From Gammaproteobacteria bacterium (GTDB lineage Bacteria; Pseudomonadota; Gammaproteobacteria; Pseudomonadales; Halieaceae): 52,820 nucleotides of DNA. Of the stretch, positions 10,750 to 28,047 are shown one piece after another. Where the stretch lies: the NCBI GenBank assembly GCA_030426545.1, contig JAUHYL010000024.1, forward strand, positions 1-52,820, read 5' to 3'. Within the stretch, counting starts at the first letter, position 1; every line of letters begins with the position of its first letter. Made by a program: the position numbers and the translations under genes. Below the pieces are notes generated by a model. That model was not told the origin of the DNA and did not search any database. It saw only the letters and a list, made by a program, of their open reading frames with translations.

Positions 10750-12838
10750 AGCCGTGGCTGCCAAGCCTGTGAACTTCGGCATCCTGTCGGGCCTTGGCAC
10801 ACCGGTGCTGATGTTCCTCATGCTCATGATGATGATGCTGCCGCTGCCGCCGTTGATGCTCGACCTGGCCTTCACGTTTAATATTGCGCTGGCCATGGTG
10901 GTATTGCTGGCCGCCGTATACGCCATGCGGCCACTGGAGTTTGCGGCGTTTCCGAGCATCCTGCTGATTGCCACGCTGCTGCGCCTGTCGCTCAATGTCG
11001 CCTCTACCCGCGTTGTGTTGCTTGAGGGCCACAACGGTACGGGTGCGGCAGGTAAAGTGATTCAGGCCTTCGGTGATTTCGTGGTCGGCGGTAGTTACAC
11101 CGTGGGCATAGTGGTCTTCGCGATCCTGGTGATTATCAATTTCGTTGTTGTCACCAAGGGTGCAGGGCGTATTTCGGAGGTAACCGCGCGTTTCACCCTG
11201 GATGCCATGCCCGGCAAGCAGATGGCGATCGATGCCGACCTCAATGCCGGCCTGATCAGCCAGGAGGACGCGCTGCAGCGCCGTGAAGACGTATCGCGCG
11301 AGGCGGACTTTTACGGCGCCATGGATGGCGCCAGCAAGTTTGTGCGCGGCGACGCGATCGCCGGCATTCTCATCCTGTTTATCAATATCATTGGCGGCTT
11401 TGCCGTTGGCGTCCTGCAGCACGATCTGACCGCCGCCGAAGCGGCCAATAACTATGTGCTGCTAACCATCGGCGACGGACTGGTCGCGCAAATTCCTTCA
11501 CTGCTGCTGTCCACTGCCGCCGCGATCATAGTCACCCGGGTGTCCGATGCGCAGGACATGGGCAAGCAGGTTGTCTCGCAACTGTTCGGCGCGCCGCGCG
11601 CACTGCTGGTTGCCGCCGCCCTGATAGGCATCATGGGCCTGGTGCCGGGTATGCCCCACCTGATTTTTCTCACCTTGGCGGGCCTGATGGGCGGCTTCGG
11701 TTACATGCGCCTGATGGAAGATCATGAAGCGGTCGCGGAACCGGAGATTGTGCCCGATGAGGTGCCCGTGGAATCCCAGGAGCTGAGCTGGGATGACGTG
11801 CTACCGGTAGATGAAATCGGCCTTGAGGTGGGCTACCGCCTGATCTCGCTGGTCGATAAAAACCAGGGCGGGGAACTGCTGAGCAGGATCAAGGGAGTAC
11901 GCAAGAAACTGTCGCAGGAGCTGGGCTTCCTGGTGCACTCGGTGCACATTCGCGACAACCTGGAGCTGTCGCCGAACGAGTACCGCATCAGCATTCACGA
12001 TGTCGCGGTGGGTGATGGCGAGGTGTATCCGGGCAAGGAACTGGCAATCAACCCGGGCCAGGTCTACGGCCAGCTGGAGGGTGTCGCCACGCGCGACCCG
12101 ACCTTTGGCCTGGAGGCGGTGTGGATTGAACCGGGCCGACGCGACGATGCGCAGGCCATGGGTTACACGGTGGTTGATTGCGGCACCGTCATTGCCACCC
12201 ACCTGAGCCAGGTGTTGAAACAGCACGCCCATGAATTGCTGGGCCAGGACAGCGTGCAGCAGTTGCTCGACAAGCTGGCGCAGACATCGCCCAAGCTGGT
12301 CGAAAACCTGGTGCCGGGGCAGCTAGGGCTCGGCGAAGTGACCCGGGTAATGCAGAACCTGCTGTCGGAGGGTGTGTCCATCCGCGATATTCGCACAATC
12401 GCCGAAGCATTGGCGGAGCAGGCGAGTAAAAGTCAGGATACTGACGCTTTAACCGCCCATGTGCGGGTGGCGTTGGGGCGCACTATCTATCAGGAGGTCA
12501 ACGGCGTCGGGCGCGAGATGGCCGTGATGACCCTGGACACGCAATTGGAACAGATATTGCAGGGAGCTATACAGGGCGCGGGGGGCGGTCTGGAGCCATC
12601 GCTTATGGAAACCGTTATCAGCCAGATCAGTCAGGCGTCGGAGCGATTCGCCGCGCAGGGCGACAGCCCGGTTCTCCTGGTTGCGGGCAGCATACGACTG
12701 TTCCTGTCACGGTTGTTGCGCGGCCGGATAAATGGCCTGTATGTGCTCGCCTATGAAGAAATCCCGGCGAACAAAACCATCAAGGTGATTGAGACCGTGG
12801 GCAATACACCGCCGCAGGTCGCCGGCCTGCAGGCTTGA
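10742..12838 (+). CDS. flhA: Flagellar export protein FlhA
   Basis: FlhA forms the nonameric ring that uses the proton motive force and docks chaperone-substrate complexes. The 698 residues match the family (about 690-700). The N-terminal part has eight membrane helices and the FHIPEP-type loop ('VVVTKGAGRISEVTARFTLD', 'DAMPGKQMAIDADLNAGLI'); the C-terminal half is the soluble docking domain. The ATG lies inside the end of flhB (8-base overlap), so the two are probably translated together. flhF follows 39 bases later. Confidence 0.98.
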   Translation: MNEAVAAKPVNFGILSGLGTPVLMFLMLMMMMLPLPPLMLDLAFTFNIALAMVVLLAAVYAMRPLEFAAFPSILLIATLLRLSLNVASTRVVLLEGHNGTGAAGKVIQAFGDFVVGGSYTVGIVVFAILVIINFVVVTKGAGRISEVTARFTLDAMPGKQMAIDADLNAGLISQEDALQRREDVSREADFYGAMDGASKFVRGDAIAGILILFINIIGGFAVGVLQHDLTAAEAANNYVLLTIGDGLVAQIPSLLLSTAAAIIVTRVSDAQDMGKQVVSQLFGAPRALLVAAALIGIMGLVPGMPHLIFLTLAGLMGGFGYMRLMEDHEAVAEPEIVPDEVPVESQELSWDDVLPVDEIGLEVGYRLISLVDKNQGGELLSRIKGVRKKLSQELGFLVHSVHIRDNLELSPNEYRISIHDVAVGDGEVYPGKELAINPGQVYGQLEGVATRDPTFGLEAVWIEPGRRDDAQAMGYTVVDCGTVIATHLSQVLKQHAHELLGQDSVQQLLDKLAQTSPKLVENLVPGQLGLGEVTRVMQNLLSEGVSIRDIRTIAEALAEQASKSQDTDALTAHVRVALGRTIYQEVNGVGREMAVMTLDTQLEQILQGAIQGAGGGLEPSLMETVISQISQASERFAAQGDSPVLLVAGSIRLFLSRLLRGRINGLYVLAYEEIPANKTIKVIETVGNTPPQVAGLQA

Positions 12839-15665: not shown

Positions 15666-16433
15666 ATGGCGAGTAGATCCCGGGCTCCTGACTTCCTCTC
15701 CCTTGCGGGGGTTGTATTGTGTGTTGCCGCGGTCGTCATCGGCAACCTGCTGGAGGGCGGGCACACCGATTCGCTGGTGCAGTTGACCGCGTTTGTCATC
15801 GTGGTCGGTGGCACGTTGGGCGCAACGATGGTGCAAACGCCGTTACAGATTTTTCTGCGCGGCATGAAACGCATCCGCTGGGTGTTTATGCCGCCGCAGT
15901 TTGATCGCGAGAAGATGCTCAAGCAGATCACCGGGTGGAGCCGTATTGCGCGCAGGGAAGGATTACTTGGCCTGCAGAAGGCCGCGGAGCGGGAGCGTGA
16001 CGCCTTCGCAAAAAAGGGACTCATGCTGTTGGTTGATGGCCGCGAGCCGGAAGAAATATCCAAGGTGCTGGAGATTGAAATCGACAATTACACGGCCAGC
16101 GAACTGAGTGCGGCCCGGGTGTACGAGGCAATGGGCGGCTATTCACCCACCATCGGCATTATTGGCGCCGTGCTGGGTTTGATCCACGTAATGAACAACC
16201 TCGCTGACCCGTCGGCCCTGGGGCCTGGGATTGCCGTGGCATTCGTGGCGACGATTTACGGTGTTGGCCTGGCAAACTTCTTCTTTTTGCCGATGGCGAA
16301 CAAATTGAAAACCATTTGTCAGGATTTAACGCAGTACCAGGAGATGATGGCCGAGGGCATTATCTCTATCGCGGAAGGCGAGAACCCGACATCGATAGCC
16401 AGTAAATTGGAAGGCTATCTCTCGAGGGACTGA
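15666..16433 (+). CDS. motC: Flagellar motor stator protein MotC (MotA family)
   Basis: This is the MotA-family subunit of a stator, which conducts ions and pushes on FliG. The 255 residues contain four membrane helices with the usual pattern: two near the N-terminus, a large cytoplasmic loop with charged residues ('WSRIARREGLLGLQKAAERE'), and two at 'YSPTIGIIGAVLGLIHVM' and 'GIAVAFVATIYGVGLANFFF'. It overlaps motD by one base. The fliA-proximal position and sequence character match Pseudomonas MotC rather than MotA; the coupling ion is not certain from sequence. Confidence 0.92.
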   Translation: MASRSRAPDFLSLAGVVLCVAAVVIGNLLEGGHTDSLVQLTAFVIVVGGTLGATMVQTPLQIFLRGMKRIRWVFMPPQFDREKMLKQITGWSRIARREGLLGLQKAAERERDAFAKKGLMLLVDGREPEEISKVLEIEIDNYTASELSAARVYEAMGGYSPTIGIIGAVLGLIHVMNNLADPSALGPGIAVAFVATIYGVGLANFFFLPMANKLKTICQDLTQYQEMMAEGIISIAEGENPTSIASKLEGYLSRD

Positions 16434-17323
16434 TGTCCAGGAAAATACGTTTCGAGGAGCAGAGCAATCACGATCGGTGGGTAGTGTCTTACGCTGATTT
16501 TGTCACCCTGTTGTTCGCGTTTTTTGTAGTCATGTATTCCATCTCGTCTGTGAACGAAGACAAGTACCGTGTACTTTCCAACGCCATGTTGTCAGCGTTC
16601 AATGACGTACCGCTTGATATGCGCGTGCAACAGGGCGGCGCGCTTGTTGACAAGCCACTGTTTGGAAAGACAACACTGATTGAGCTGCCCCAAAACGATG
16701 TGGTGGTTCCACTGCGAGCGCAGCCTGAAAAAAAGGCGGCCGACCCCGTAGCGCCACCAAAAAAACAGGACAAGCTTTCGGAGCAGCTGGACGCGGCGGA
16801 GCAGGAAGTGCTTGCCCTGTCCCGGCAAGTCGAAAAGCGCATGCAGCCCACGATAGAAGATGAGCTGATCAACCTGAAGCGCAACAAATTCTGGTTGGAG
16901 GTGGAAATTAAATCCAGCCTGCTGTTCGAGAGCGGCAGCAGTGCGCTAATTCCCTCTTCAGTGCCACTGCTTCTGGACCTGGCCGATATGTTTGTCGATT
17001 TGCCCAACCGCATTCATGTAGAAGGCTTCACTGATGATCAGCCGATTCGCACGCCGGTGTTCCCCTCCAACTGGGAGCTGTCGGCGGCGCGGGCAGCCGC
17101 GGTAGTGCGATTGTTCGAGCGGCACGGCATTGACCCGGGCCGCATGGCCTCGATTGGCTATGGCGAACACCAGCCGCTGACCACGAATGATACGCTGGAA
17201 TCGAGAGCCAGAAACCGGCGGGTAGTGGTAGTTGTCCTCGCTGCGCTGGGCGATGACGGCAATGAGCGCATGCGTGAATTTGAACTGCTCAAGGAACGCG
17301 CGATTGCCCAGGCGGGCGGCTAG
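16433..17323 (+). CDS. motD: Flagellar motor stator protein MotD (MotB family)
   Basis: MotD is the peptidoglycan-anchored partner of MotC. The 296-residue product has one membrane helix carrying the ion-binding aspartate (D22, in 'WVVSYADFVTLLFAFFVVMY'), a Pro/Lys-rich plug and linker region, and an OmpA-like peptidoglycan-binding domain with 'VEGFTDDQPI' and 'ELSAARAAAVVRLF'. It ends the plus-strand flagellar cluster and faces the convergent pilZ gene 57 bases away. No clear terminator hairpin was found between them. Confidence 0.93.
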   Translation: MSRKIRFEEQSNHDRWVVSYADFVTLLFAFFVVMYSISSVNEDKYRVLSNAMLSAFNDVPLDMRVQQGGALVDKPLFGKTTLIELPQNDVVVPLRAQPEKKAADPVAPPKKQDKLSEQLDAAEQEVLALSRQVEKRMQPTIEDELINLKRNKFWLEVEIKSSLLFESGSSALIPSSVPLLLDLADMFVDLPNRIHVEGFTDDQPIRTPVFPSNWELSAARAAAVVRLFERHGIDPGRMASIGYGEHQPLTTNDTLESRARNRRVVVVVLAALGDDGNERMREFELLKERAIAQAGG

Positions 17324-17380: not shown

Positions 17381-17971
17381 TTAATCGCTCGATTCAACCG
17401 CCATGTCCGACGGTTGCCTGTCATCAAACTGACGTTGTACAACGTGCTGTATTAACTGCTCGCGGGCTTCCTCGCAAGTCTCGTCAATGCTGATTCGCAT
17501 CAGGTAATTGGTCGAGGGTATCTCCGAAACGCGTTCGCAGGCGACGACCCTCGCGGTAAAACGCAACTCGATATTGGATGGCTTGAGTATTGCGGCCATG
17601 CGCAGTCGGCTCTCGACCTGCACAGGCTCCTCGCTGTGGAACGCCATACCGCAACCACTGATACTCGCGGTCATCTCGTTGTACGTTGTGGTCATATCGC
17701 CGTCCTCACGCAACAGGTGAGTGGCGATCAGGGAAATTTTACGATTGAGCAATCCGATGGCGCGGGCGGCATTGGCGCTCTCCCGCCACAGTACATTGGT
17801 CGCTTCGTTGATGTCGTTATCGATTTTACCCAGTAGGCCGAGCAGCTGAATCTGCGTACCGCTGGCGTGATCGCGCGGCAGATCCTCGTCGCCTTCGACA
17901 ACTGAATAGCTCAGGCCGATGACGTCGTTGATGCGAAAGTAGGCTCTCCTCTCTATACCTTTATGATGCAT
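17381..17971 (-). CDS. PilZ-domain protein with long internal helical insert
   Basis: This is a probable c-di-GMP effector acting with the neighbouring pomAB stator. The 196 residues start with 'ERRAYFR' (RxxxR-type arginines at 8-13), but the second PilZ signature appears only at residues 101-106 as 'TASISG', where the usual Asp/Asn is Thr. The roughly 88 residues between are mostly helical with heptad-like spacing. This layout recalls the tetrameric PilZ proteins described in Xanthomonas, an analogy from memory. It is the last gene of pomA-pomB-pilZ (44-base gap), with a CAGGAGG ribosome site. By analogy with YcgR/FlgZ it may brake or select stators. The altered signature makes ligand binding uncertain. 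Confidence 0.78.
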   Translation of the reverse strand: MHHKGIERRAYFRINDVIGLSYSVVEGDEDLPRDHASGTQIQLLGLLGKIDNDINEATNVLWRESANAARAIGLLNRKISLIATHLLREDGDMTTTYNEMTASISGCGMAFHSEEPVQVESRLRMAAILKPSNIELRFTARVVACERVSEIPSTNYLMRISIDETCEEAREQLIQHVVQRQFDDRQPSDMAVESSD

Positions 17972-18015: not shown

Positions 18016-18981
18016 TCAGCCGGAGGCTGTTGTCGTGATAGTTTCGAGGTCGAGCCGCTCCATGATATCCGGTTCAACCTTCTGTAGTTCTTTGAGTGTA
18101 CTCGTCGTCGCGTTGTCCAGGCCCTGGCGAATGATAATTTCTACCCTGCGGTTCAGCGCCCTGTTCTGGGCCGAGTCGTTTGGCTTGAACGGTTGTGTAG
18201 CAGCCAGACCTACGACCATGAAACGGTCTTCATCCAGCTCGCCTCGTTTCACCAGTTCATGCGTAACAGACAGCGCGCGCGATGCTGACAGATCCCAGTT
18301 CGATGCAAAACGAGCGCCGGCGATGGGTACGTTGTCGGTGTGACCTTCAATAGAAATTTTCCCCTCGATGTTTTTAAGAGCACTTCGCAGATCCAGCATC
18401 ACCGGGATGAACTCCGGATTTAAAGTGGCAGAACCGGAGGGAAATGAACCGCGCTCACGGATGCGGATGACAATCGTGCGCCCGCTGGACTCGATATCGA
18501 TCTTGCCTTCATCAATATCCTTTTTCAGCACCTGGCGCAATTTCTCGGCGTCCGCGCGCGTTTGGTTCAACAGCGACCTGAGCTTTTCTTCCAGCAGGCG
18601 AGCGGTCTGTTCGTCATCCAAATCTTCGCCCGACACCTTGGGCGCTGTCGGGTTGCCTACCTGCAGTGACTGCTTCTTGTTCTCGGTGGTGAACTGGGTG
18701 ACGGTCTTAACGGCTGTGGGCTGAGGTTTGCCAGGGCTGAACTCGCGCGCAATGACGCTGGTGCCCTTGGGAATGTCCTTGACCTTGATTTCGTTCTGCA
18801 CACCGAAGGCGTCTTTCATTGAACCCGCGATCTGTTTGTACTTTTGCACGTCCATCTCTGAAAAGGAGAGTAACAGTACAAAGAAACACATCAGCAGGGA
18901 CATCAGATCAGCGAAGGTCGCCATCCATGCCGGTGAACCGCCGCCTTCTTCCTCTTCCTCGACTTCGGCTGCGACGTTCAT
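18016..18981 (-). CDS. pomB: Sodium-type stator protein PomB (MotB family)
   Basis: This is the peptidoglycan-anchoring subunit of a second stator. The 321 residues begin with an acidic tail, then a membrane helix carrying the critical aspartate D25 in 'MATFADLMSLLMCFFVLLLS', followed by 'SEMDVQKYKQIAGSM' and 'FGVQNEIKVKDIPKGTS'. These closely resemble the Vibrio PomB N-terminus as I recall it. The C-terminal OmpA domain shows 'SIEGHTDNVPI' and 'NRALNRRVEI'. The resemblance suggests Na+ coupling, which is inference. It overlaps pomA by one base; pilZ follows. Confidence 0.92.
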   Translation of the reverse strand: MNVAAEVEEEEEGGGSPAWMATFADLMSLLMCFFVLLLSFSEMDVQKYKQIAGSMKDAFGVQNEIKVKDIPKGTSVIAREFSPGKPQPTAVKTVTQFTTENKKQSLQVGNPTAPKVSGEDLDDEQTARLLEEKLRSLLNQTRADAEKLRQVLKKDIDEGKIDIESSGRTIVIRIRERGSFPSGSATLNPEFIPVMLDLRSALKNIEGKISIEGHTDNVPIAGARFASNWDLSASRALSVTHELVKRGELDEDRFMVVGLAATQPFKPNDSAQNRALNRRVEIIIRQGLDNATTSTLKELQKVEPDIMERLDLETITTTASG

Positions 18982-19766
18982 CAGGCTGCGTCTTCCATCG
19001 CTTCGCCGCTGTCGCTGGATTCAGCGCGTTTTTTCGGATCGAGGTAGGTCTTCAGCATGGATTCGATGATTCTCGGGTTCTGCCCGGCCTGGATCGCCAG
19101 CACGCCATCGATACACATGGCCTTGATGCGCCCCTCGTCGGCCTTGCGCAGCGTCAGCTTGTCGGCAATGGGCATGGCGACCATATTGGCCAGCATTGCG
19201 CCGTAGAGTGTGGTCAGCAGCGCTACCGCCATCGCCGGGCCGATCGACTTGGGATCGTCCATCGAGGAGAGCATCTGCACCAGGCCGATCAATGTACCGA
19301 TCATGCCCATGGCGGGCGCAACATCGCCCATCGCGCTGTACACCTTGGCGCCCCACTTGTGGCGGTCGATGGTTTGCTGGAGGTCTTTGCTCATCACGGC
19401 CTGGATGACTTCCTGGTTGTTACCGTCAATGAGCATCTGGATACCCTGGTTGAGGAATTCGTTTTCGATCTCCTCGTTCTCCAGCGCCAGCATGCCCTCT
19501 TTGCGCGCGATGTTGGACAGGCTGACGATCTTTTCGATCAACGCTTCCGGGCTGTCCACCTTGAACACAAAGGCGCGAGCGGCAACCTTGAACGCGCCAA
19601 AGAACTGTCCCAGTGAAAATTTGATCATCACTACCATGAACGTACCACCCAGCACGATCAGTAGTGATGGAATGTTGACGAAGACCAGCGCCGAGCCGCC
19701 CGTCAGCATGGCGGCCAGCACAATGCCGATGGCGCCGAGCATGCCCACAAGTGTTGCCAGATCCAT
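18981..19766 (-). CDS. pomA: Sodium-type stator protein PomA (MotA family)
   Basis: This is the MotA-family channel subunit paired with PomB. The 261 residues start 'MDLATLVGMLGAIGIVLAAM', like Vibrio PomA, and include four membrane helices, a charged cytoplasmic loop ('NIARKEGMLALENEEIEN') and the conserved 'GDVAPAMGMIGTLIGLVQML' and 'GPAMAVALLTTLYGAMLANM' segments. It is the first gene of the minus-strand pomA-pomB-pilZ operon. No clear sigma-28 or sigma-54 site was seen in the 92 bases upstream. Confidence 0.93.
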   Translation of the reverse strand: MDLATLVGMLGAIGIVLAAMLTGGSALVFVNIPSLLIVLGGTFMVVMIKFSLGQFFGAFKVAARAFVFKVDSPEALIEKIVSLSNIARKEGMLALENEEIENEFLNQGIQMLIDGNNQEVIQAVMSKDLQQTIDRHKWGAKVYSAMGDVAPAMGMIGTLIGLVQMLSSMDDPKSIGPAMAVALLTTLYGAMLANMVAMPIADKLTLRKADEGRIKAMCIDGVLAIQAGQNPRIIESMLKTYLDPKKRAESSDSGEAMEDAA

Positions 19767-20638: not shown

Positions 20639-21745
20639 ATGGATGAGCTGCGGCTGGGTTTTACCCCGGCGGGACGGGGAAGCATCGACACCGGGGCGTG
20701 GCTGCGTAATTGGCAGCTTGGCCAGGTGTTACGTGCGCAGGTGGTGGATACCTCGCAAGCGGGCACGGTGTTGCTGCGCATAGCCAACCACCAAGTCTCT
20801 GCCAGTACTAATGTTTTTCTGCAAAGGGGCGCCTGGCTTAACCTCCAGGTGACCGGCCTGGCGCCTGAACCGACGGTGCGAGTACTGGAGTCGCCGCCGC
20901 GCAGCGCGGAGCTGACCAGCCCGCTGGAGCGCCAGACGCAAATGCTCTTGCCGCGGCAGGGCCCGGTACTCGGACCGCTGCTGACCCTGCTGAACCCGGC
21001 ACAGAGAGTCAATTTATTGTCGCTGCTGGGCGTCAGTGGCGGCGATGTGGATCCCGCCCTCAACGCGCTACTGTGGCAGGGCCCTCCCCGCAGCCCCGAG
21101 GCACTGCAAAAAGCCCTGCTGCAATCCGGCCTGTTCTTCGAATCCGACCTTTTCCGGCAGGGTGCGCAGGCGGCAGTGGCCACAGATCTGAAAGCCCTGT
21201 TGTTCCGCCTGCTGGCGCGGATAGCCGCGGCGCGCGGCGATTCCACGGCCGTTGCCCAACTCCCGGCGGCAGCCAGCCAGCTTGCCGGCTTGCAGGGTGA
21301 GGTGGAGGGCGCGTTGGCAGCACTGTCACTGAACCAGCTGGCTGCCAGCCAGCAGCACCAGCAGCAGGATGCCTGGATCTGGGTCTTCCACGTGCCGTTC
21401 ACACTGCGCGATGAGATGCACCGCCTGTCTATCACGCTGCGCCGCGAGGCCGGTGAGGCAGGTGAAGATGCGCCTGAGCGCGAGTGGAAAGCGCTGTTAC
21501 AGCTGGATCTTCCCCGACTGGGTGCCCTGGAAATAGAGGTGTTTTTGCGCGGGGTGCGGGTGTCGGCCGTGTTCTACTCCGGACGCATGTCGAGCGTATT
21601 ATCGCTGCAGCGAGCGCTTGGCAAACTCGAAGCGGTTCTGCGCCAACACAACTTTGAAGTGGGTGTATTGCGTGCCCACCACGGTGAGCGCGAGCGAGGG
21701 TCGCAGAGCGAGCCCGCCGGCACCGGCTTCAGGCACAGTGTGTAG
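20639..21745 (+). CDS. Second FliK-like protein (Flg_hook C-terminal domain)
   Basis: A 368-residue soluble protein related to the C-terminal switch domain of FliK. The N-terminal part ('WQLGQVLRAQVVDTSQAGTV', 'GAWLNLQVTGL') is a beta-rich module seen in FliK paralogues. The middle is helical with a Gln/His-rich run ('QQHQQQ' near residue 240). The C-terminal domain ('LQLDLPRLGALEIEVFLRGV', 'RALGKLEAVLRQHNFEVGVL') matches the Flg_hook fold. It is shorter than the operon FliK and lacks the long low-complexity ruler region. It is followed 40 bases later by a mini FlhB-C-like gene, so the pair mirrors the FliK-FlhB switch partners. Function unproven. Confidence 0.82.
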   Translation: MDELRLGFTPAGRGSIDTGAWLRNWQLGQVLRAQVVDTSQAGTVLLRIANHQVSASTNVFLQRGAWLNLQVTGLAPEPTVRVLESPPRSAELTSPLERQTQMLLPRQGPVLGPLLTLLNPAQRVNLLSLLGVSGGDVDPALNALLWQGPPRSPEALQKALLQSGLFFESDLFRQGAQAAVATDLKALLFRLLARIAAARGDSTAVAQLPAAASQLAGLQGEVEGALAALSLNQLAASQQHQQQDAWIWVFHVPFTLRDEMHRLSITLRREAGEAGEDAPEREWKALLQLDLPRLGALEIEVFLRGVRVSAVFYSGRMSSVLSLQRALGKLEAVLRQHNFEVGVLRAHHGERERGSQSEPAGTGFRHSV

Positions 21746-21785
21746 GTCGGCGTGGAGGCCAGTATGCGCGACTTGAGGAGAGGCA

Positions 21786-22010
21786 ATGACTAGGGACAAC
21801 CGGGCCATTGGCCGCTCCATACACAAACTGGCGCGACGGCAGGGCACGCCGATGTCCCAGGAATCAGAGCTGACGGGCCTGCTCAGCCAGGTGATTCCGG
21901 CCGATGAGGTGCCGGCCAGCCTGATGCAGGTGCTGGCTGATGTGCTGGGCTTTGTGGATGATCTGGAGGCGGCGCAGAGCGCGCCACCCACCGAAACGCG
22001 AAAGTCGTGA
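21786..22010 (+). CDS. Mini FlhB-C-like protein (export-switch domain, lacks cleavage motif)
   Basis: A 74-residue protein resembling the last part of the FlhB/YscU cytoplasmic domain: 'AIGRSIHKLARRQGTP' corresponds to the 'IAQKIREVALENDIA' region of this window's FlhB, and 'VIPADEVPASLMQVLADVLGFV' to its 'QQIPENLYLAVAKVLAYVY'. The NPTH site and the preceding 'AVALKYD..APIVLAKG' strand, normally present in FlhX-type homologues, are missing. The start at 21786 is firm: an in-frame TGA lies at 21774 and GAGGAG sits five bases upstream. It pairs with the FliK-like gene before it. It may bind FliK-like or export components without cleavage. Confidence 0.72.
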   Translation: MTRDNRAIGRSIHKLARRQGTPMSQESELTGLLSQVIPADEVPASLMQVLADVLGFVDDLEAAQSAPPTETRKS

Positions 22011-22035
22011 AACTGCACGCAAAAAGTGCCGATTT
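22009..22035 (+). promoter_or_regulatory. Possible sigma-28 (FliA) promoter
   Basis: GAAA at 22009-22012 and GCCGATTT at 22028-22035 are spaced by 15 bases, resembling the FliA consensus TAAA-N15-GCCGATAA (3/4 and 6/8 matches). It lies about 140 bases upstream of the J-domain/PilZ gene, so that gene may belong to the late flagellar regulon. The match is imperfect and could be chance. Confidence 0.35.
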
Positions 22036-22175
22036 TCTGTGATTCTGTTCCCAGATTGCCCCGTTTGGAACAACGCTGGTCCCACTTTTGCTGCACAGTA
22101 GACGTTCGGCCAAAACAGGCTACGCTTAACGGGTTTCGCTGTAGCCAGCGACATCTCTTTTACGTAGCAGACAAG

Positions 22176-22877
22176 ATGAAAAACCGACGCAACTACTACC
22201 GAATTCTGCATGTGCAACCGGACGCACCGCGTGAGGTGATCCGCTCCAGCTACCGCACCATCATGCACAAAATGCGCACCCATCCAGACCTGGGCGGGGA
22301 CGAGGCCAATGCCGCATTAGTCAATGAAGCCTACTCGGTGCTGTCGAACGAGACGGAGCGCGCCAGTTACGACCAGTTGCGGCAGAGTGCCGACTGGTCG
22401 CGCTCGGCGGCTAACGATCCGCCCCTGGGGGAGCTCGTGCTCGGTGCGGCGCAACAAACCGCCTGCGCTTTCTGTGCCGCGCCGGTAGCAGAGGCTCACG
22501 ACGATCAGGGCCTGACCGGTTTTTGCCCGGGCTGTGACAGCCCACTCGCGCCGGTAGCCGATATTGTGATGGAAGACAGTGACAGGCGCGCCATCGCGCG
22601 TATTCCCAAACAACTGGGCATTGCGTTTTGCACGCACTGGCCGCAGCTGTCACCGCACAGCGGCATTGCCAATGACATCTCGCTCACCGGCATGCGCTTC
22701 GGTACCGAAGTATTCATGGCCAGGGACCAGATCGTGAAAATTGATAGTGCTGCGTTGAAAGCCGTGGCGCGAGTGGTGCGCTGCCAGCCTCTGGCGTCCC
22801 GCTGGGAAGTTGGCGTTCACTTTTTGAACCTCTGTTTCGCGCGCGCCAAAGGCTCCTTTGTGCATGAGCGTGTCTAG
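22176..22877 (+). CDS. J-domain / zinc-ribbon / PilZ fusion protein
   Basis: A 233-residue soluble protein with three modules. Residues 5-70 form a J domain with an intact HPD (H36-P37-D38), implying stimulation of a DnaK-type chaperone. Residues 97-120 hold a four-cysteine zinc-ribbon pattern (C97, C100, C117, C120). Residues 135-230 form a PilZ domain with both c-di-GMP signatures intact: 'RRAIAR' (137-142) and 'DISLTG' (167-172), then 'VGVHF'. I chose ATG 22176 because the J domain starts there; an upstream GTG at 22026 adds 50 residues of no family character. It suggests c-di-GMP control of a chaperone step. I know of no characterised member of this exact architecture. Confidence 0.85.
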   Translation: MKNRRNYYRILHVQPDAPREVIRSSYRTIMHKMRTHPDLGGDEANAALVNEAYSVLSNETERASYDQLRQSADWSRSAANDPPLGELVLGAAQQTACAFCAAPVAEAHDDQGLTGFCPGCDSPLAPVADIVMEDSDRRAIARIPKQLGIAFCTHWPQLSPHSGIANDISLTGMRFGTEVFMARDQIVKIDSAALKAVARVVRCQPLASRWEVGVHFLNLCFARAKGSFVHERV

Positions 22878-22953
22878 GTCATTGTTGGGAAATGGCGCCT
22901 TTACAGAGTGCGCCCGGTCTGAGGCCCCGTAGGTTGTTACTACCCGTTGCTGC

Positions 22954-23475
22954 CTAACGCACCCTGTCCACGCGCACGGATATCGGATCTGCCGATGAAT
23001 AGGTTTGGCTACCCGCCGTGTAACGGCGTGTCGAACCCGCAGCACCGTCCTGCATCGGTTGGCCGGTGCTCATAAGCGTTATCCAACTGCCAACTTCGCC
23101 GCTCAGCGTCGAGCTGAAGCGGGTTGATGTGTCACCCCGCCGATCCCGGTAGTCAATTTCCAGCGTCACGGTGTCACCGTCCAGCGTCGGCGTCACCGCC
23201 AGGTAGCTTTCACTGGCTGGAACCTCTTCAATCTGAAACCATGTCCAGGTTTTTTCGCCGGCCTGAAGGCGGTATTCGGTGCCGTGTTCGCGTTGCAGGA
23301 CGACCGTGGCGCCGTCCGTTGTCTGCACGCTCGTCTGCGGCTTCGAGCTGTAGTGCTGCGTACCGCCCTGGCCCGGGCCAAAAGTGAGCAACAGGGGCTG
23401 TGGCCCGGCGGCAAGAACACTGGTGTGAAAGGCGCCAAGGGCAACAGCGGCTACCAGGCAAAGTACTCTGATCAT
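22954..23475 (-). CDS. Small secreted protein of unknown function
   Basis: About 173 residues from the start chosen here, or 180 if an ATG at 23496 is used. I prefer 23475 because it gives a clean signal peptide ('MIRVLCLVAAVALGAF' to 'VLAAG'); the longer form puts a glutamate in the n-region. The mature part is beta-rich and Thr/Ser/Gly-rich, with 'VTPTLDGDTVTLEIDYRDR' and 'STLSGEVGSWITL', a pattern faintly like secretin-type or beta-sandwich repeats. No family was recognised. It is probably periplasmic. It lies on the same strand just downstream of the GADEF protein (about 65 bases), so it may share its transcript. Confidence 0.65.
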   Translation of the reverse strand: MIRVLCLVAAVALGAFHTSVLAAGPQPLLLTFGPGQGGTQHYSSKPQTSVQTTDGATVVLQREHGTEYRLQAGEKTWTWFQIEEVPASESYLAVTPTLDGDTVTLEIDYRDRRGDTSTRFSSTLSGEVGSWITLMSTGQPMQDGAAGSTRRYTAGSQTYSSADPISVRVDRVR

Positions 23476-23539
23476 AAGCGTTGCAGTCTCAACCATTGTC
23501 TTCGTAAAGTCACGCCTGTTGCCCTGTACCCGCTCCGCC

Positions 23540-25270
23540 TCAGGTCGCGGAGATCGCCTTTGACGGTGTGGAGCTGTAACCCGCGCTCGCCCTGGCGCGG
23601 TACATGTCGGACTTCGCGGCCTCTACCAGGCTGTCGAGGTCTTCGCCGTCTGCCGGCAACCGGGCCACGCCGATGCTCGCACCGATGCTGACATGGCGAC
23701 CAAGAATGGAGAACGGAGTGGAAAGTGCCTCGCGCAGTTTACGGCTGACGTCATCGGCAGGATCTTCTCCACGCGCACTGCTGAGTACCACAATAAACTC
23801 GTCTGCGCCCTGACGCGCAATCAGGTCCGTTTCGCGCAGCTCTGCTGACATCCGCTGCGCGGCTTCGTACAGCAGCTCATCACCGGCCGCACGCCCCAGT
23901 GAATCGTTTACTACCTTGAATCCGTCCAGGTCCATATACAGCACGGTGAGTGTTTGCACATCGCGTTTTGCCAGGTTGCGCATCCAGTCAAATCGTTCGC
24001 GCAGCATCAGTTTTCCCGGTAGACCGGTGAGTTCATCGTGCAGCACTTCGTGTCGGGATCGCATCTCGTGGCGAATATGCGCTGCGAGGCAAATGGAAAA
24101 CAGCAGTACGTGCAGCGTAAAACCGATCTTGGAGAACTGCATGGTGGCCAGGCCCGTCATTGGCGACTGTACGGTCACCACCACCTGGGCAACCGCTGCC
24201 AGGTTGGGCACCAGCATGCACAAAAGCAAAGGCCATGCCAGGGCAACACGCTGGAGTATGGCGTGAATACAGACTACGTAAACCATGACCGTGCCGACCA
24301 GCCAGGGCAGGAATGGGGCGAGCGGCGGAAGCTCGGTGATACCGAAAAAACCGGTCCCGACGATGGCAATCAAGATCAGCGCAAGGGTAGCCTGCGATGC
24401 CCTGTGCAGCGCAGGCGCCCGTTGTGCGGTCCTGAGGAAGGCATTGACGGCCATGAGCCGGAACATGGCGGATGTCAGTGTCAGCGAGTGCAATGCGTGG
24501 TCGTTCAGAGACGGATAGTCCGGCCATAGATAGAGAAACCCGAGCCCCTCCAGCGTGATCAGCGCCAGGAAACTGAACAACAGGTAACCGCTGTAATAGA
24601 GGTAGTCCCGGCGTCTCAGGTTCAGACCCAGCAGGAGATTGAAAAACAGCAGCGCGCCTATCGCTGCCAGGCTGCAGGCGGTAAGAATAGTGTATGTGCG
24701 TAGCTGCGAGTCAAACAGCTCAGCCTCAATCAAGTCCCAGGCAAGGTTCTCGCTGCCAGCGCCGCCTGTCATTCGAACATAGACCGTCGTGGATTCGACA
24801 CCGGAGGGCAGTGCGAATGAGTAGCGCGGGGTATCCAACTCGCGGCTGTGTGCCGGGTAGTTGTTGCCTGTCACGAACTCTGAATAGTTGCCGTCTGCGT
24901 CAACCCGGTAGACACGCAGGTCCAGCATGTTTTCCATTCTGGCGGCGAGGTGGTACTGCAGGTCTCGCGTCTGCGGCGGGAAAGTCAGGTGCAACTTCAG
25001 CCAGATCGGGGCGAATACCGTTGTCGGTCGCTGTTGCATACTGGAGGTGAATGCATAGTCCTGCGGATGCGAGACCAGATCTTCAATACTGATGCTGGCG
25101 GCGGGGTCTTCAAGATAATCAAACTCGTCGTTGAGCTGATACCAGTCGGAAGCGACTTCCAGTGCGGAGACCTTGAGCGAGGCAAGTAGCAGGCTTGCAG
25201 CCAGCAATACCCACCATCGCGAGAGGGTCTGCCAGTTCAGGGGCGTCCTGATAGTCCTGATAGTTCTCAT
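23540..25270 (-). CDS. 7TMR-DISM sensor with GGDEF domain (variant GADEF)
   Basis: A 576-residue membrane sensor of the diguanylate cyclase type. A signal segment (about 1-36) precedes a periplasmic DISMED2 domain (about 40-165, 'DWYQLNDEFDYLEDP'), seven membrane helices (about 180-400) and a GGDEF domain from residue 411 ('HDELTGLPGK'). The active-site loop reads 'GADEF' at 488-492 instead of GGDEF; the inhibitory-site pattern RETD (479-482) is present five residues before it. The metal-binding 'DLDGFKVVNDSLG' is kept. Activity is therefore uncertain: reduced cyclase or c-di-GMP receptor. The start region contains a tandem ACTATCAGG repeat that encodes 'RTIRTIRT'. It is a paralogue of its upstream neighbour. 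Confidence 0.9.
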   Translation of the reverse strand: MRTIRTIRTPLNWQTLSRWWVLLAASLLLASLKVSALEVASDWYQLNDEFDYLEDPAASISIEDLVSHPQDYAFTSSMQQRPTTVFAPIWLKLHLTFPPQTRDLQYHLAARMENMLDLRVYRVDADGNYSEFVTGNNYPAHSRELDTPRYSFALPSGVESTTVYVRMTGGAGSENLAWDLIEAELFDSQLRTYTILTACSLAAIGALLFFNLLLGLNLRRRDYLYYSGYLLFSFLALITLEGLGFLYLWPDYPSLNDHALHSLTLTSAMFRLMAVNAFLRTAQRAPALHRASQATLALILIAIVGTGFFGITELPPLAPFLPWLVGTVMVYVVCIHAILQRVALAWPLLLCMLVPNLAAVAQVVVTVQSPMTGLATMQFSKIGFTLHVLLFSICLAAHIRHEMRSRHEVLHDELTGLPGKLMLRERFDWMRNLAKRDVQTLTVLYMDLDGFKVVNDSLGRAAGDELLYEAAQRMSAELRETDLIARQGADEFIVVLSSARGEDPADDVSRKLREALSTPFSILGRHVSIGASIGVARLPADGEDLDSLVEAAKSDMYRARASAGYSSTPSKAISAT

Positions 25271-25322: not shown

Positions 25323-27053
25323 TCATGAAAGCGCCAGGCCAGTTGCCAGTTTACGACCGTTTCTGTTGCGATTCTTCTTCTTGTACATGTCAGTATCTGC
25401 TTCTCTGAGCAGGGTATCCAGATCTGCTTCGCCGGCTGATGCTGAAGCCAAACCGATGCTGCCGCTGATAGAGGCGGTTTCTCTCGTCAGTTCAAAAGGC
25501 CTCGACAGACAGGCGCTCAGGCGCTTGTTAACGATGACGGATGCATTGATTTCAGCGTCGTTTGCAAGCACCACAATAAACTCATCGCCACCAATACGCG
25601 ACAGAAAGTCCGCATCCCGGAGCTGCTCGCGCATGCGGACAGCAGCCTGGCGTAGCAGTTCGTCGCCAGCGTCGTGCCCAAGCGAGTCATTGACGCTCTT
25701 GAACCCGTCCAGGTCGATGAATAGCACGGTTATCACCTGATTCTCTCTGAGAGCGATGCTCTTCATCCACTCGAAGCGCTCCTCTAGCAGCTGCTTGCCC
25801 GGTAACCCCGTCAAGCCATCATGTAGCGCCTGCGAGTGGGCTTGTGTCTCATGCCGGATGTGGGCCGCCAGACAAGTCGAAAACAGCAGGACGTGCACGA
25901 GAATGCCGAACTTGGCCAACTGCATTTCTGCCACGCCCAGTGTCGGGGAATGAAGTATCAGCAGTGCCTGAGTCAAGGCGGTTACCTTGGGTATCAGCAT
26001 GCAAATCAACATTGGGACCGCCAGTTTGATACGCATCATCACCGCGTAGAGACACAATAAGTACAGCGTTCCAGTTCCCACGACCCAGGGTAACCAGGGG
26101 ACAAGCGGTGGCAGCTTCGACATCCCGAACAGGTTGACCAGCAATATACCTGCCAGCATGCAACCTATTGCTGCCCGTGAGAGGCGCTGCAATAGCGGTT
26201 GTTGCTGTGTTAATCCGAAGAAAGCGTTTACAGAAAGTAATTGCAGGATGGTGGCGCACAGTACGAAGGTGTGCAGGGCCCGGTCGTTAAGCTCGGGAAA
26301 CTCTGGCCAGAGTAGTCTGAACCCCTCGCCCTCCATGGTAATCAGGGACAGTGCCACGAAGAACACCCCGCCGCTGTAGTACAGGTAATCCGCACGCCAG
26401 AGACTGACCGCAATGAGAAAGTTGAATAGACACAGCGCAAGTATTGCTGCGAGGCAGGCCACGGTGATTAGATAGTAGCGATGCTCGCCTGTTGTGAAAA
26501 ACGCTTCCTCCACCAGATCCCATGCAAGATTGGTACTGCCAGGCCCCCCGACTTTGCGGATATAGATTGTTGTCGTTTCGCTGCCCATGGGCACATGGAA
26601 GGCGTAGCGCGGCCTGTTGAGCTCGCGTGTTTCAGCGGGGTAATCATTCCCGGTTATCGTTTCAAAGTATGTACCATCAGGTGCCTGGCGATAGACGCGT
26701 AGCTCAGCGATGTTTTCGCTGCGTGCAACCAGAAGATACTCTCTGGCTCGCGCTTCCTCCGTGAAGGACAGCGTAAGCTTCAACCACACGGGGGCAAAAA
26801 CGAGATCCGGTTTGGTCTCTCTGCTGGGGTAAAAAACGAACTCGTCGGGACGCGACAACAGATCATCGATGGTAATCTCACCCGTGGGATCTTCCAGGTA
26901 ATCAAACTTGGAGTTAAGCACATACCAGTTGGAGCTGACCGAGACTGCTGCGTTAACACCCGCTGACAGGAGCACGGCAAGCGTCAGCAGTGCCAGCCGC
27001 AGCAAAGGGCGCGATGCAAGGGTTACAAGATGGATGTGATTGGCGATAGTCAT
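25323..27053 (-). CDS. 7TMR-DISM diguanylate cyclase (GGDEF)
   Basis: A 576-residue paralogue of the adjacent GADEF protein, with the same length and domain borders: signal segment, DISMED2 sensor ('NWYVLNSKFDYLEDP'), seven membrane helices and a GGDEF domain from residue 411 ('HDGLTGLPGK'). Here the active-site motif is the canonical GGDEF (488-492) and the inhibitory site is RDAD (479-482), so this copy should make c-di-GMP and be feedback-inhibited. The ligand of the periplasmic domain is unknown; DISMED2 folds are often carbohydrate-binding-like. The pair almost certainly arose by tandem duplication. The genes are 52 bases apart on the same strand. Confidence 0.92.
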   Translation of the reverse strand: MTIANHIHLVTLASRPLLRLALLTLAVLLSAGVNAAVSVSSNWYVLNSKFDYLEDPTGEITIDDLLSRPDEFVFYPSRETKPDLVFAPVWLKLTLSFTEEARAREYLLVARSENIAELRVYRQAPDGTYFETITGNDYPAETRELNRPRYAFHVPMGSETTTIYIRKVGGPGSTNLAWDLVEEAFFTTGEHRYYLITVACLAAILALCLFNFLIAVSLWRADYLYYSGGVFFVALSLITMEGEGFRLLWPEFPELNDRALHTFVLCATILQLLSVNAFFGLTQQQPLLQRLSRAAIGCMLAGILLVNLFGMSKLPPLVPWLPWVVGTGTLYLLCLYAVMMRIKLAVPMLICMLIPKVTALTQALLILHSPTLGVAEMQLAKFGILVHVLLFSTCLAAHIRHETQAHSQALHDGLTGLPGKQLLEERFEWMKSIALRENQVITVLFIDLDGFKSVNDSLGHDAGDELLRQAAVRMREQLRDADFLSRIGGDEFIVVLANDAEINASVIVNKRLSACLSRPFELTRETASISGSIGLASASAGEADLDTLLREADTDMYKKKNRNRNGRKLATGLALS

Positions 27054-27069: not shown

Positions 27070-28047
27070 TCACTTCATCGATTGCAGGCGTTCTCCGCAG
27101 TGTGGGCAAAAGTTGATGCTCGCATTCGCTTCGCGATGCCCCTGGATTAACCTGTCCATGACCTCTTTTGAGACGCCCAACTTTTGCTGCAGCGTGTTCA
27201 ATGCATCCTGCTCATCGGTATCCAGAACGCCGTCGCGCATGGCATCTTGCACCTGCATCTTCAGGTACTCCCGACGAATCTGCAGCTCTTCTGAAAAACG
27301 TGCGGCGAGAATGCCTGCGGGCAACGCCATGGTGCCAATACCCAGCAGCATGATTGCGATCGCGAGGAGCTTCCCTGCAAAGGTGATGGGCGTGATGTCG
27401 CCATAGCCAACGGTGGTCAGTGTGACGACGGCCCACCAGATCGATTCGATGATGCTGTCGAAGTGCCCCGGTTTGGCTGCTGTTTCTACCGTGAACATAA
27501 GGCACGCCGATATGATTATAAGTATCAGCATGGTCAGCAGCGCACCGGAAATGGCGCTGGCTTCACGACGGATAACTTCGGTGAATATTTTCAGGCCATC
27601 AAAATAGTGCGAAAGTTTGAGCAGCCGCAGCAGTCTGAAGAATCGCAGGTAACGAAGGTCAATCGGAATGAACAGGGACAGGTAAAACGGTGCAATGGCC
27701 AGCAGGTCAATCAGCGCCATTGGTGTACACATATAGTTTAGTTGCGCCCGCCAACGAGGTAGCCCGTTGTAATCGCTGATCTCTGTTGAGGACCAGACCC
27801 TGGCGAGATACTCGAGGGTGAAGATCATTACGGAGAATATTTCAAAGGCATAGAACAGGTTTCGATAGCTGTCATGTATGGCCGCGTTGGATTCGAGGAT
27901 AACGGCGACGCCGTTCAGCAGGATGAGCGCAATGATGAACCGCTGGACAAATCTGCAGGCCTGCGAATCGAACTCTCCTTCCAGAAAACGGTACGCTGTC
28001 ACGCGTCTTGAATTGGCCGCTGTTGCCATTGCCTGCCCTGTTCGCAA
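27070..28047 (-). CDS. Voltage-gated K+ channel with C-terminal CPHC motif
   Basis: A 325-residue six-helix ion channel. The S4 voltage sensor carries a basic residue every third position (R132, R135, R138, R141, K144), and the pore has the K+ selectivity filter TVGYGD (212-217) followed by S6. After a cytoplasmic helical region ('GVLDTDEQDALNTLQQKLGV') the protein ends with 'CPHCGERLQSMK', a half zinc-ribbon (C314, C317) that could pair between subunits of the tetramer. Start 28047 is used; an internal ATG at 28029 is equally plausible. It lies 16 bases upstream of the GGDEF gene on the same strand, suggesting co-transcription. Confidence 0.9.
   Translation of the reverse strand: MRTGQAMATAANSRRVTAYRFLEGEFDSQACRFVQRFIIALILLNGVAVILESNAAIHDSYRNLFYAFEIFSVMIFTLEYLARVWSSTEISDYNGLPRWRAQLNYMCTPMALIDLLAIAPFYLSLFIPIDLRYLRFFRLLRLLKLSHYFDGLKIFTEVIRREASAISGALLTMLILIIISACLMFTVETAAKPGHFDSIIESIWWAVVTLTTVGYGDITPITFAGKLLAIAIMLLGIGTMALPAGILAARFSEELQIRREYLKMQVQDAMRDGVLDTDEQDALNTLQQKLGVSKEVMDRLIQGHREANASINFCPHCGERLQSMK

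Follow-up and report, generated by a model that had tools for sequence, protein, structure and literature searches.

The question raised by the locus studied here is how a single protein that carries a J domain, a four-cysteine ribbon and a PilZ domain in one chain might act. Its gene is located at 22176..22877 on the forward strand of a 52,820-nucleotide stretch of DNA (the window) from contig JAUHYL010000024.1 of a gammaproteobacterium of the Halieaceae (assembly GCA_030426545.1). The reading preferred here, to which a probability of approximately 0.48 is assigned, is that the protein is a cyclic di-GMP (c-di-GMP) receptor of the flagellar regulon that acts through Hsp70, recruiting DnaK to a flagellar client.

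Architecture and conservation of the J/ribbon/PilZ family

Translation of 22176-22877 bears out the 233-residue protein described in an earlier note on this DNA, together with its motif positions: HPD at residues 36-38, CAFC at 97-100, CPGC at 117-120, RRAIAR at 137-142 and DISLTG at 167-172. From the translation, Pfam and an alignment of 79 members, the protein is divided into a J domain (residues 6-66, 22191..22373, with the HPD codons at 22281-22289), a four-cysteine ribbon (residues 97-120, 22464..22535) and a PilZ domain (residues 137-231, 22584..22868, with RxxxR at 138-142 and D/NxSxxG at 167-172), all on the forward strand. Both domains named in the earlier note exceed the curated Pfam cut-offs, DnaJ with an E value of 1.6e-11 over residues 6-66 (44.6 bits against 27.8) and PilZ with 1.1e-5 over residues 161-219 (26.2 bits against 22.5). 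The Pfam PilZ match begins C-terminal to RxxxR, which is assigned from the family alignment. At E values up to 1 these are the sole Pfam matches of the protein, and Hsp70 is not among them. No NCBIfam model reaches its cut-off; the partial matches are to DnaJ-type models and cover the J part alone, and the full-length DnaJ model TIGR02349 matches residues 6-72 at 41.4 bits against a cut-off of 377.2, which indicates that the protein is not a canonical class A DnaJ. Among 27 diverse relatives, J-domain-type models alone were named by NCBIfam. The predicted structure was aligned to c-di-GMP-bound VCA0042, and it aligns closely to a DnaK-bound J domain. The reverse strand of the gene contains two stops in the frame read. 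An alternative upstream start exists (GTG at 22026), and the relatives begin at a methionine corresponding to 22176.

A first search covered 37 genomes from the genus, family and order of the window, its own genome among them, and gave relatives with J and PilZ domains in three others (G014, 59%; G015, 47%; G026, in two pieces). The alignment of these four provided patterns for a contig scan, in which 126 stretches matched, 93 encode a relative and 80 were kept. The architecture survey suggested in the earlier note thus finds the fusion to be widespread, with these 93 relatives in several phyla. Because these patterns were drawn from the J-domain N-terminus, the conservation of that segment is partly a product of the search; the ribbon, the HPD motif and the PilZ domain lie outside the patterns. 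Two short open reading frames (ORFs), L048 and L087, were dropped, which leaves 78 relatives and the window protein with a median pairwise identity of 36%. In L048, the J-PilZ ORF (6001 onwards) ends after 50 residues, through a frameshift or an assembly error.

According to the submitters' titles and a maximum-likelihood tree, the members belong to Pseudomonadota, Acidobacteriota, Nitrospirota, Gemmatimonadota, Thermodesulfobacteriota, Planctomycetota and others, and the three-part architecture is more than a chance joining since the same protein is present in several phyla. The window protein pairs with that of a Halioglobus metagenome-assembled genome (MAG; support 100/98) within a group containing other Halieaceae, which puts the organism of the window probably near this family. 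On the tree the phylum labels change 11 times, compared with 20.6 after shuffling, a clustering that points to considerable vertical descent and some transfers, although contigs of MAGs may be misbinned.

All five PilZ ligand residues are kept in 76/79 members (the exceptions are L046, L059 and L092). Four of the five rank first in conservation among the positions of the C-terminal half, and the fifth, D167, is Asp or Asn in 78/79. The signature RRAIAR proposed in the earlier note holds for R138 (78/79) and R142 (79/79) and does not hold for Arg137 (31/79). Binding of c-di-GMP by the PilZ domain, as predicted from this residue conservation, is strongly supported. The four cysteines are kept in 73/79 members; J-PilZ members whose ribbon is without them are L074, L077, L079, L085, L070 and L091. 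In one or two of 65 rows scanned, parts of the protein also drew the Pfam names Zinc-ribbon, Trm112, Lar or FtsH-ternary, which were not used. In the same 65 rows, two of which are copies of others, Pfam DnaJ matches 65/65 and Pfam PilZ 56/65 at an E value of 0.01. HPD is retained in 61 of the 63 members with a single J domain, which supports a predicted partnership with DnaK. The two without it are L061 and L089; the latter, whose reading has no start codon, clusters with a tandem-J member on the tree and could be a truncated tandem protein. A genome search gave 18 further loci, ten of which hold proteins that do not copy earlier ones; by pattern, both PilZ motifs are present in all ten and the cysteines in nine.

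Flagellar genes and FliA-type promoter sites

The fusion was compared with FlhA in three samples of genomes by a search that scores the best candidates per genome only, so that absences may be overcounted. In a class sample of 276 genomes there are 13 matches at 1e-15, comprising 11 with J and PilZ domains and two with J only; FlhA is found in 155/276 genomes, in 11/11 fusion holders and in 54% of the other genomes (Fisher p 0.0015). In the phylum of L044 (149 genomes), FlhA is present in 48, including all four holders and 30% of the others (p 0.0099). In the phylum of L056 (197 genomes), seven matches include three full fusions, and the 124 genomes with FlhA include 3/3 holders and 62% of the others. 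When the seed genomes are left out, the p values are 0.0027, 0.031 and 0.39, with a product of 3.2e-5. Three families of the class sample each contain a fusion holder with FlhA and another genome that has neither (G270/G172, G076/G203 and G138/G244). Of the 80 genomes that supplied the fetched loci, 50 were covered; 47 of these have FlhA, and G352 has FliG in place of it, giving 48/50 with one or the other.

The FliA consensus TAAA-N15-GCCGATAA was sought in the 200 bases upstream of each of the 79 family genes. Two genes on sister rows (L028 and L078) have no mismatch, three have one (L039, L046 and L049) and four have two. Sites with at most one mismatch precede 5/79 family genes and 2/580 of the other genes called at these loci (p 3.8e-4), and sites with at most two precede 9/79 and 11/580 (p 1.8e-4); ORFs overlapping the family gene were removed from these 580 controls, among which other spurious ORFs may persist. 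Dinucleotide shuffles gave 0.02 and 0.74 for the two thresholds. With other spacers and at most two mismatches, the counts are 2/79 for N12 (p 0.25), 1/79 for N13, 4/79 for N14 (p 0.06), 5/79 for N16 (p 0.009), none for N17 and 1/79 for N18, so that the signal is strongest at N15 with a shoulder at N16. The reverse strand upstream of the family genes holds one site with two mismatches and none with fewer, and upstream matches to the sigma54 (4/79, p 0.18) and sigma70 (0/79) consensus sequences are not enriched. At the loci of the ten further proteins, L105 has a one-mismatch site at -78, and the other nine have three or more mismatches. FliA-type sites therefore precede the gene in several lineages and are enriched relative to nearby genes, and FliA may control its transcription.

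Possible modes of action

Because several relatives have a FliA-type site, the gene may be expressed alongside the late flagellar genes. The PilZ domain would bind c-di-GMP and, together with the ribbon, would change conformation or dock on a flagellar client. The J domain would bring ATP-bound DnaK to this client and trigger ATP hydrolysis, and DnaK could then hold or remodel the client during the shift from swimming to settled life. By analogy with ycgR and flgZ, the simplest mechanism would be that DnaK is delivered to a flagellar client in a c-di-GMP-dependent way, and the ligand might equally turn the J domain on or off.

Several observations weigh against this reading. Five other families of the class sample contain a genome with FlhA and without the fusion (e.g. 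G202, G263, G264, G083 and G173); from the within-family pairs, FlhA seems to be needed for the fusion and not the reverse. Two of the 50 holders, G314 and G344, have neither FlhA nor FliG, and the genomes compared are phylogenetically non-independent, many of them being incomplete MAGs. The control with PilT fails to separate flagella from pili, since the holders in both samples tested all have PilT (11/11 and 4/4). It is also found in 234/276 genomes of the class and 133/149 of the phylum of L044 (Fisher p in the class sample 0.16), and the control is uninformative because PilT is so common; a link to type IV pili was dropped for the same reason. PilT exceeds its cut-off in 48/50 holders, and the two others are the genomes of L070 and L091. 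Upstream of the gene, 70/79 members, the window included, are without a FliA-type site within two mismatches. The window has a weak FliA-like site, GAAA-N15-GCCGATTT, at 22009..22035 on the forward strand, with three mismatches; it is not significant alone, and its position is not kept in an alignment of five upstream sequences. FliA-type sites in the whole window number 36 against a shuffled mean of 20.3, which none of 100 shuffles reaches, and single sites with three mismatches mean little. No sigma70-type promoter was found near the gene, in 21700-23100. Among the gene neighbours surveyed, no flagellar gene recurs outside the Halieaceae. The earlier note's suggestion, drawn from the gene's location, that motility proteins are possible clients is strengthened by the co-occurrence with FlhA and by the FliA-type sites, and it is weakened by this lack of recurrent flagellar neighbours.

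The J domain itself provides the remaining objections. In the window protein, Tyr26 and His36 are 10 residues apart, whereas the spacing is 8 in 21/21 other J domains matched in related genomes, and activation of DnaK could be weakened by the longer stretch of two additional residues ahead of HPD. Furthermore, 16 members (15 of Nitrosomonas type, which fall between L075 and L100, and L084) have two J domains, J1 and J2, ahead of the ribbon and PilZ domain. HPD is present in J1 of 7/16 and lost in 9/16, and J2 is without it in 16/16, with the loop shortened there. Activation of DnaK thus looks dispensable in this branch. The PilZ ligand residues (R245, R249, D273, S275 and G278 of L080) are invariant in 16/16, which indicates that the ligand site is more tightly constrained there than HPD, and the helix I stretch is highly conserved in both J copies. 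A model of a tandem protein, of low confidence (predicted local distance difference test 58.9, predicted template modelling score 0.31), has four helices per J copy and a short loop between helices II and III of J2. In the class sample, L111 and perhaps L110 also look tandem.

The tandem branch is the main evidence for a different explanation, in which the J fold is a docking module that does not activate DnaK, the c-di-GMP-bound PilZ domain performs the work, and the protein binds the motor or export gate as YcgR does. The HPD losses beside invariant ligand residues, the conserved helix I stretches and the greater distance of HPD from the helix-II tyrosine would all fit such a protein. A mere scaffold, however, would find HPD superfluous, and the motif persists in nearly all single-J members across phyla; the close alignment of the model with a DnaK-bound J domain also argues against it. 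Docking without activation is accordingly regarded as somewhat unlikely.

It is quite improbable that the protein is a co-chaperone which responds to c-di-GMP but serves general proteostasis or biofilm clients, its flagellar link being a by-product of the association of c-di-GMP with motility. The absence of recurrent flagellar neighbours outside the Halieaceae favours this explanation, as does the example of CsdK1 and CsdK2 of Myxococcus xanthus, which under heat stress act on CdbS and which motility does not require (PMC10313047). PilT in all holders of two samples leaves room for other surface behaviours, but this gene is too common to say much. FlhA is present in all holders of three samples although it is far from universal there, and the FliA-type sites are enriched with the best signal at the 15-base spacer; both weigh against this explanation. 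It is very improbable that the PilZ domain has lost c-di-GMP binding and serves as a structural or binding domain, since the ligand residues are so well conserved (D167 included), even though its Pfam score barely exceeds the cut-off and 9/65 rows are without a PilZ match.

If DnaK recruitment to a flagellar client is the function, a widely conserved c-di-GMP receptor with DnaK recruitment as its output would join second-messenger signalling to protein folding. Such a family would make testable how DnaK serves flagella, and may link the decision to swim or settle to chaperone action. A bolder form of the proposal, which we consider unlikely, is a conserved c-di-GMP-gated recruitment of Hsp70 at the flagellum, in which rising c-di-GMP would lead the PilZ domain to steer DnaK to the motor, export gate or a flagellar regulator, chaperone work beyond mechanical braking would end motility, and the Nitrosomonas branch would be a regulator made of a J and a pseudo-J domain in tandem.

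Gene surroundings and known systems

In the window, the gene is preceded by a FliK-like hook-length protein (20639..21745, +; Pfam Flg_hook 5.1e-9) and a small protein of 74 residues related to the FlhB C-terminus (21786..22010, +; TIGR00789 flhB_rel, E value 2.2e-4, 21.4 bits, far under the cut-off of 117). FliK-like relatives are also near the family gene in L021, L022 and L024. FlhA (10802-12799) and a match to FliG (16-792) are present, and Pfam identifies one MotA, one MotB and one sigma-70-family factor, which we take to be FliA-like. A second PilZ protein (17381-17971, -; Pfam 3.2e-6) lies between two motA/motB-like pairs at 15666-17323 (+) and 18016-19766 (-), of which one MotA and one MotB are identified by Pfam and the remaining two from their reading and position. 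This second PilZ protein has SISGCG in place of D/NxSxxG, and its ligand site looks degenerate. Convergent with the J-PilZ gene is an exported-looking orphan of 180 residues (22954-23496, -), and by reading a similar protein adjoins the family gene in L002 and L003. Tandem paralogues of 576 residues with 7TMR-DISM and GGDEF domains (23540-25270 and 25323-27053, -; the first with GADEF, the second with GGDEF) and an ion-channel protein with a C-terminal CxxC motif (27070-28047, -; Ion_trans 3e-34) follow.

The neighbour survey covered the nearest called gene on each side, 126 neighbours in all with 13 Nitrosomonas-type loci excluded, and 110/126 were scanned with Pfam. No family was found in more than 3/110 and none of those found in at least two is flagellar, singletons being mostly unlisted; a conserved operon was rejected on these counts. 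Gene calls were longest-ORF calls with antisense ORFs included. Clustering of 829 such crude calls gave a largest non-family cluster that is mixed (18 loci, 26 ORFs), several of its ORFs overlapping the family gene in antisense and its representative being an HDOD-GGDEF protein. The Pfam identities of eight cluster representatives (HDOD/GGDEF, DUF2325, ArsR-type, ferritin, phosphatase/oxidoreductase, RND transporter, P-type ATPase and MatE) include none that is flagellar.

To our knowledge, c-di-GMP effectors that control motility do so by braking motors or by altering transcription. Compared with DnaJ and CbpA, the family matches the J part alone of the full-length models, has two extra residues before HPD, and continues with the ribbon and PilZ domain. 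The tandem branch may be likened to Tim14-Tim16 (Pam18-Pam16) as a J domain beside an HPD-less J domain, an analogy for which the tandem model is of low confidence; that pair belongs to the mitochondrial import motor, consists of two chains and has no PilZ domain.

In the open-access literature of PubMed Central, with subscription journals and preprints largely uncovered and most listed papers unopened, no description of the J/ribbon/PilZ family or its flagellar link was found, and passages on PilZ/J proteins do not describe a tandem arrangement of J and HPD-less J domains. Reviews of c-di-GMP effectors (PMC12564702, PMC10519070) have DnaK in their reference lists alone, and the passages of PMC10490939, PMC10781756 and PMC2797640 do not describe the fusion. 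In Pseudomonas aeruginosa, DnaK-FliC interactions are reportedly required for flagellum assembly (PMC11816700); since that paper stresses an ATP- and DnaJ-independent, extracellular role, it supports DnaK at flagella and not a J protein there.

The earlier note had allowed that the architecture might already be well characterised. No study of it was found among the papers listed, but section 5 of PMC8316039 mentions that in M. xanthus some PilZ proteins carry DnaK or DnaJ. The claim that PilZ-J fusions are unknown was accordingly dropped, and what appears new is the J/ribbon/PilZ variant. The PilZ-DnaJ protein of M. xanthus, unnamed in that section, likewise has PilZ and J domains in one chain; all 24 PilZ genes of this species were deleted, with defects reported for plpA, pixA, pixB and pkn1 (PMC8316039). 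CsdK1 and CsdK2 are PilZ-DnaK chaperones that raise CdbS levels, and CsdK2 has the full c-di-GMP motif (PMC10313047). They resemble the window protein in joining PilZ to a component of the Hsp70 machine, and differ in that an N-terminal PilZ domain is placed on Hsp70 itself, whereas the window protein has a C-terminal PilZ domain on a J-domain protein with a ribbon, and is without the nucleotide- and substrate-binding domains of Hsp70. The genes ycgR and flgZ are FliA-controlled genes of the flagellar regulon for PilZ receptors; YcgR contacts MotA through its PilZ domain, and its N-terminal domain is taken to meet FliG (PMC5300878, PMC3913639, PMC9303241). The family would share with these brakes a c-di-GMP receptor function, a C-terminal PilZ domain and, if FliA does control it, membership of the flagellar regulon. 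YcgR and FlgZ have an N-terminal domain of their own and no chaperone part, whereas the family has the J domain and ribbon in its place.
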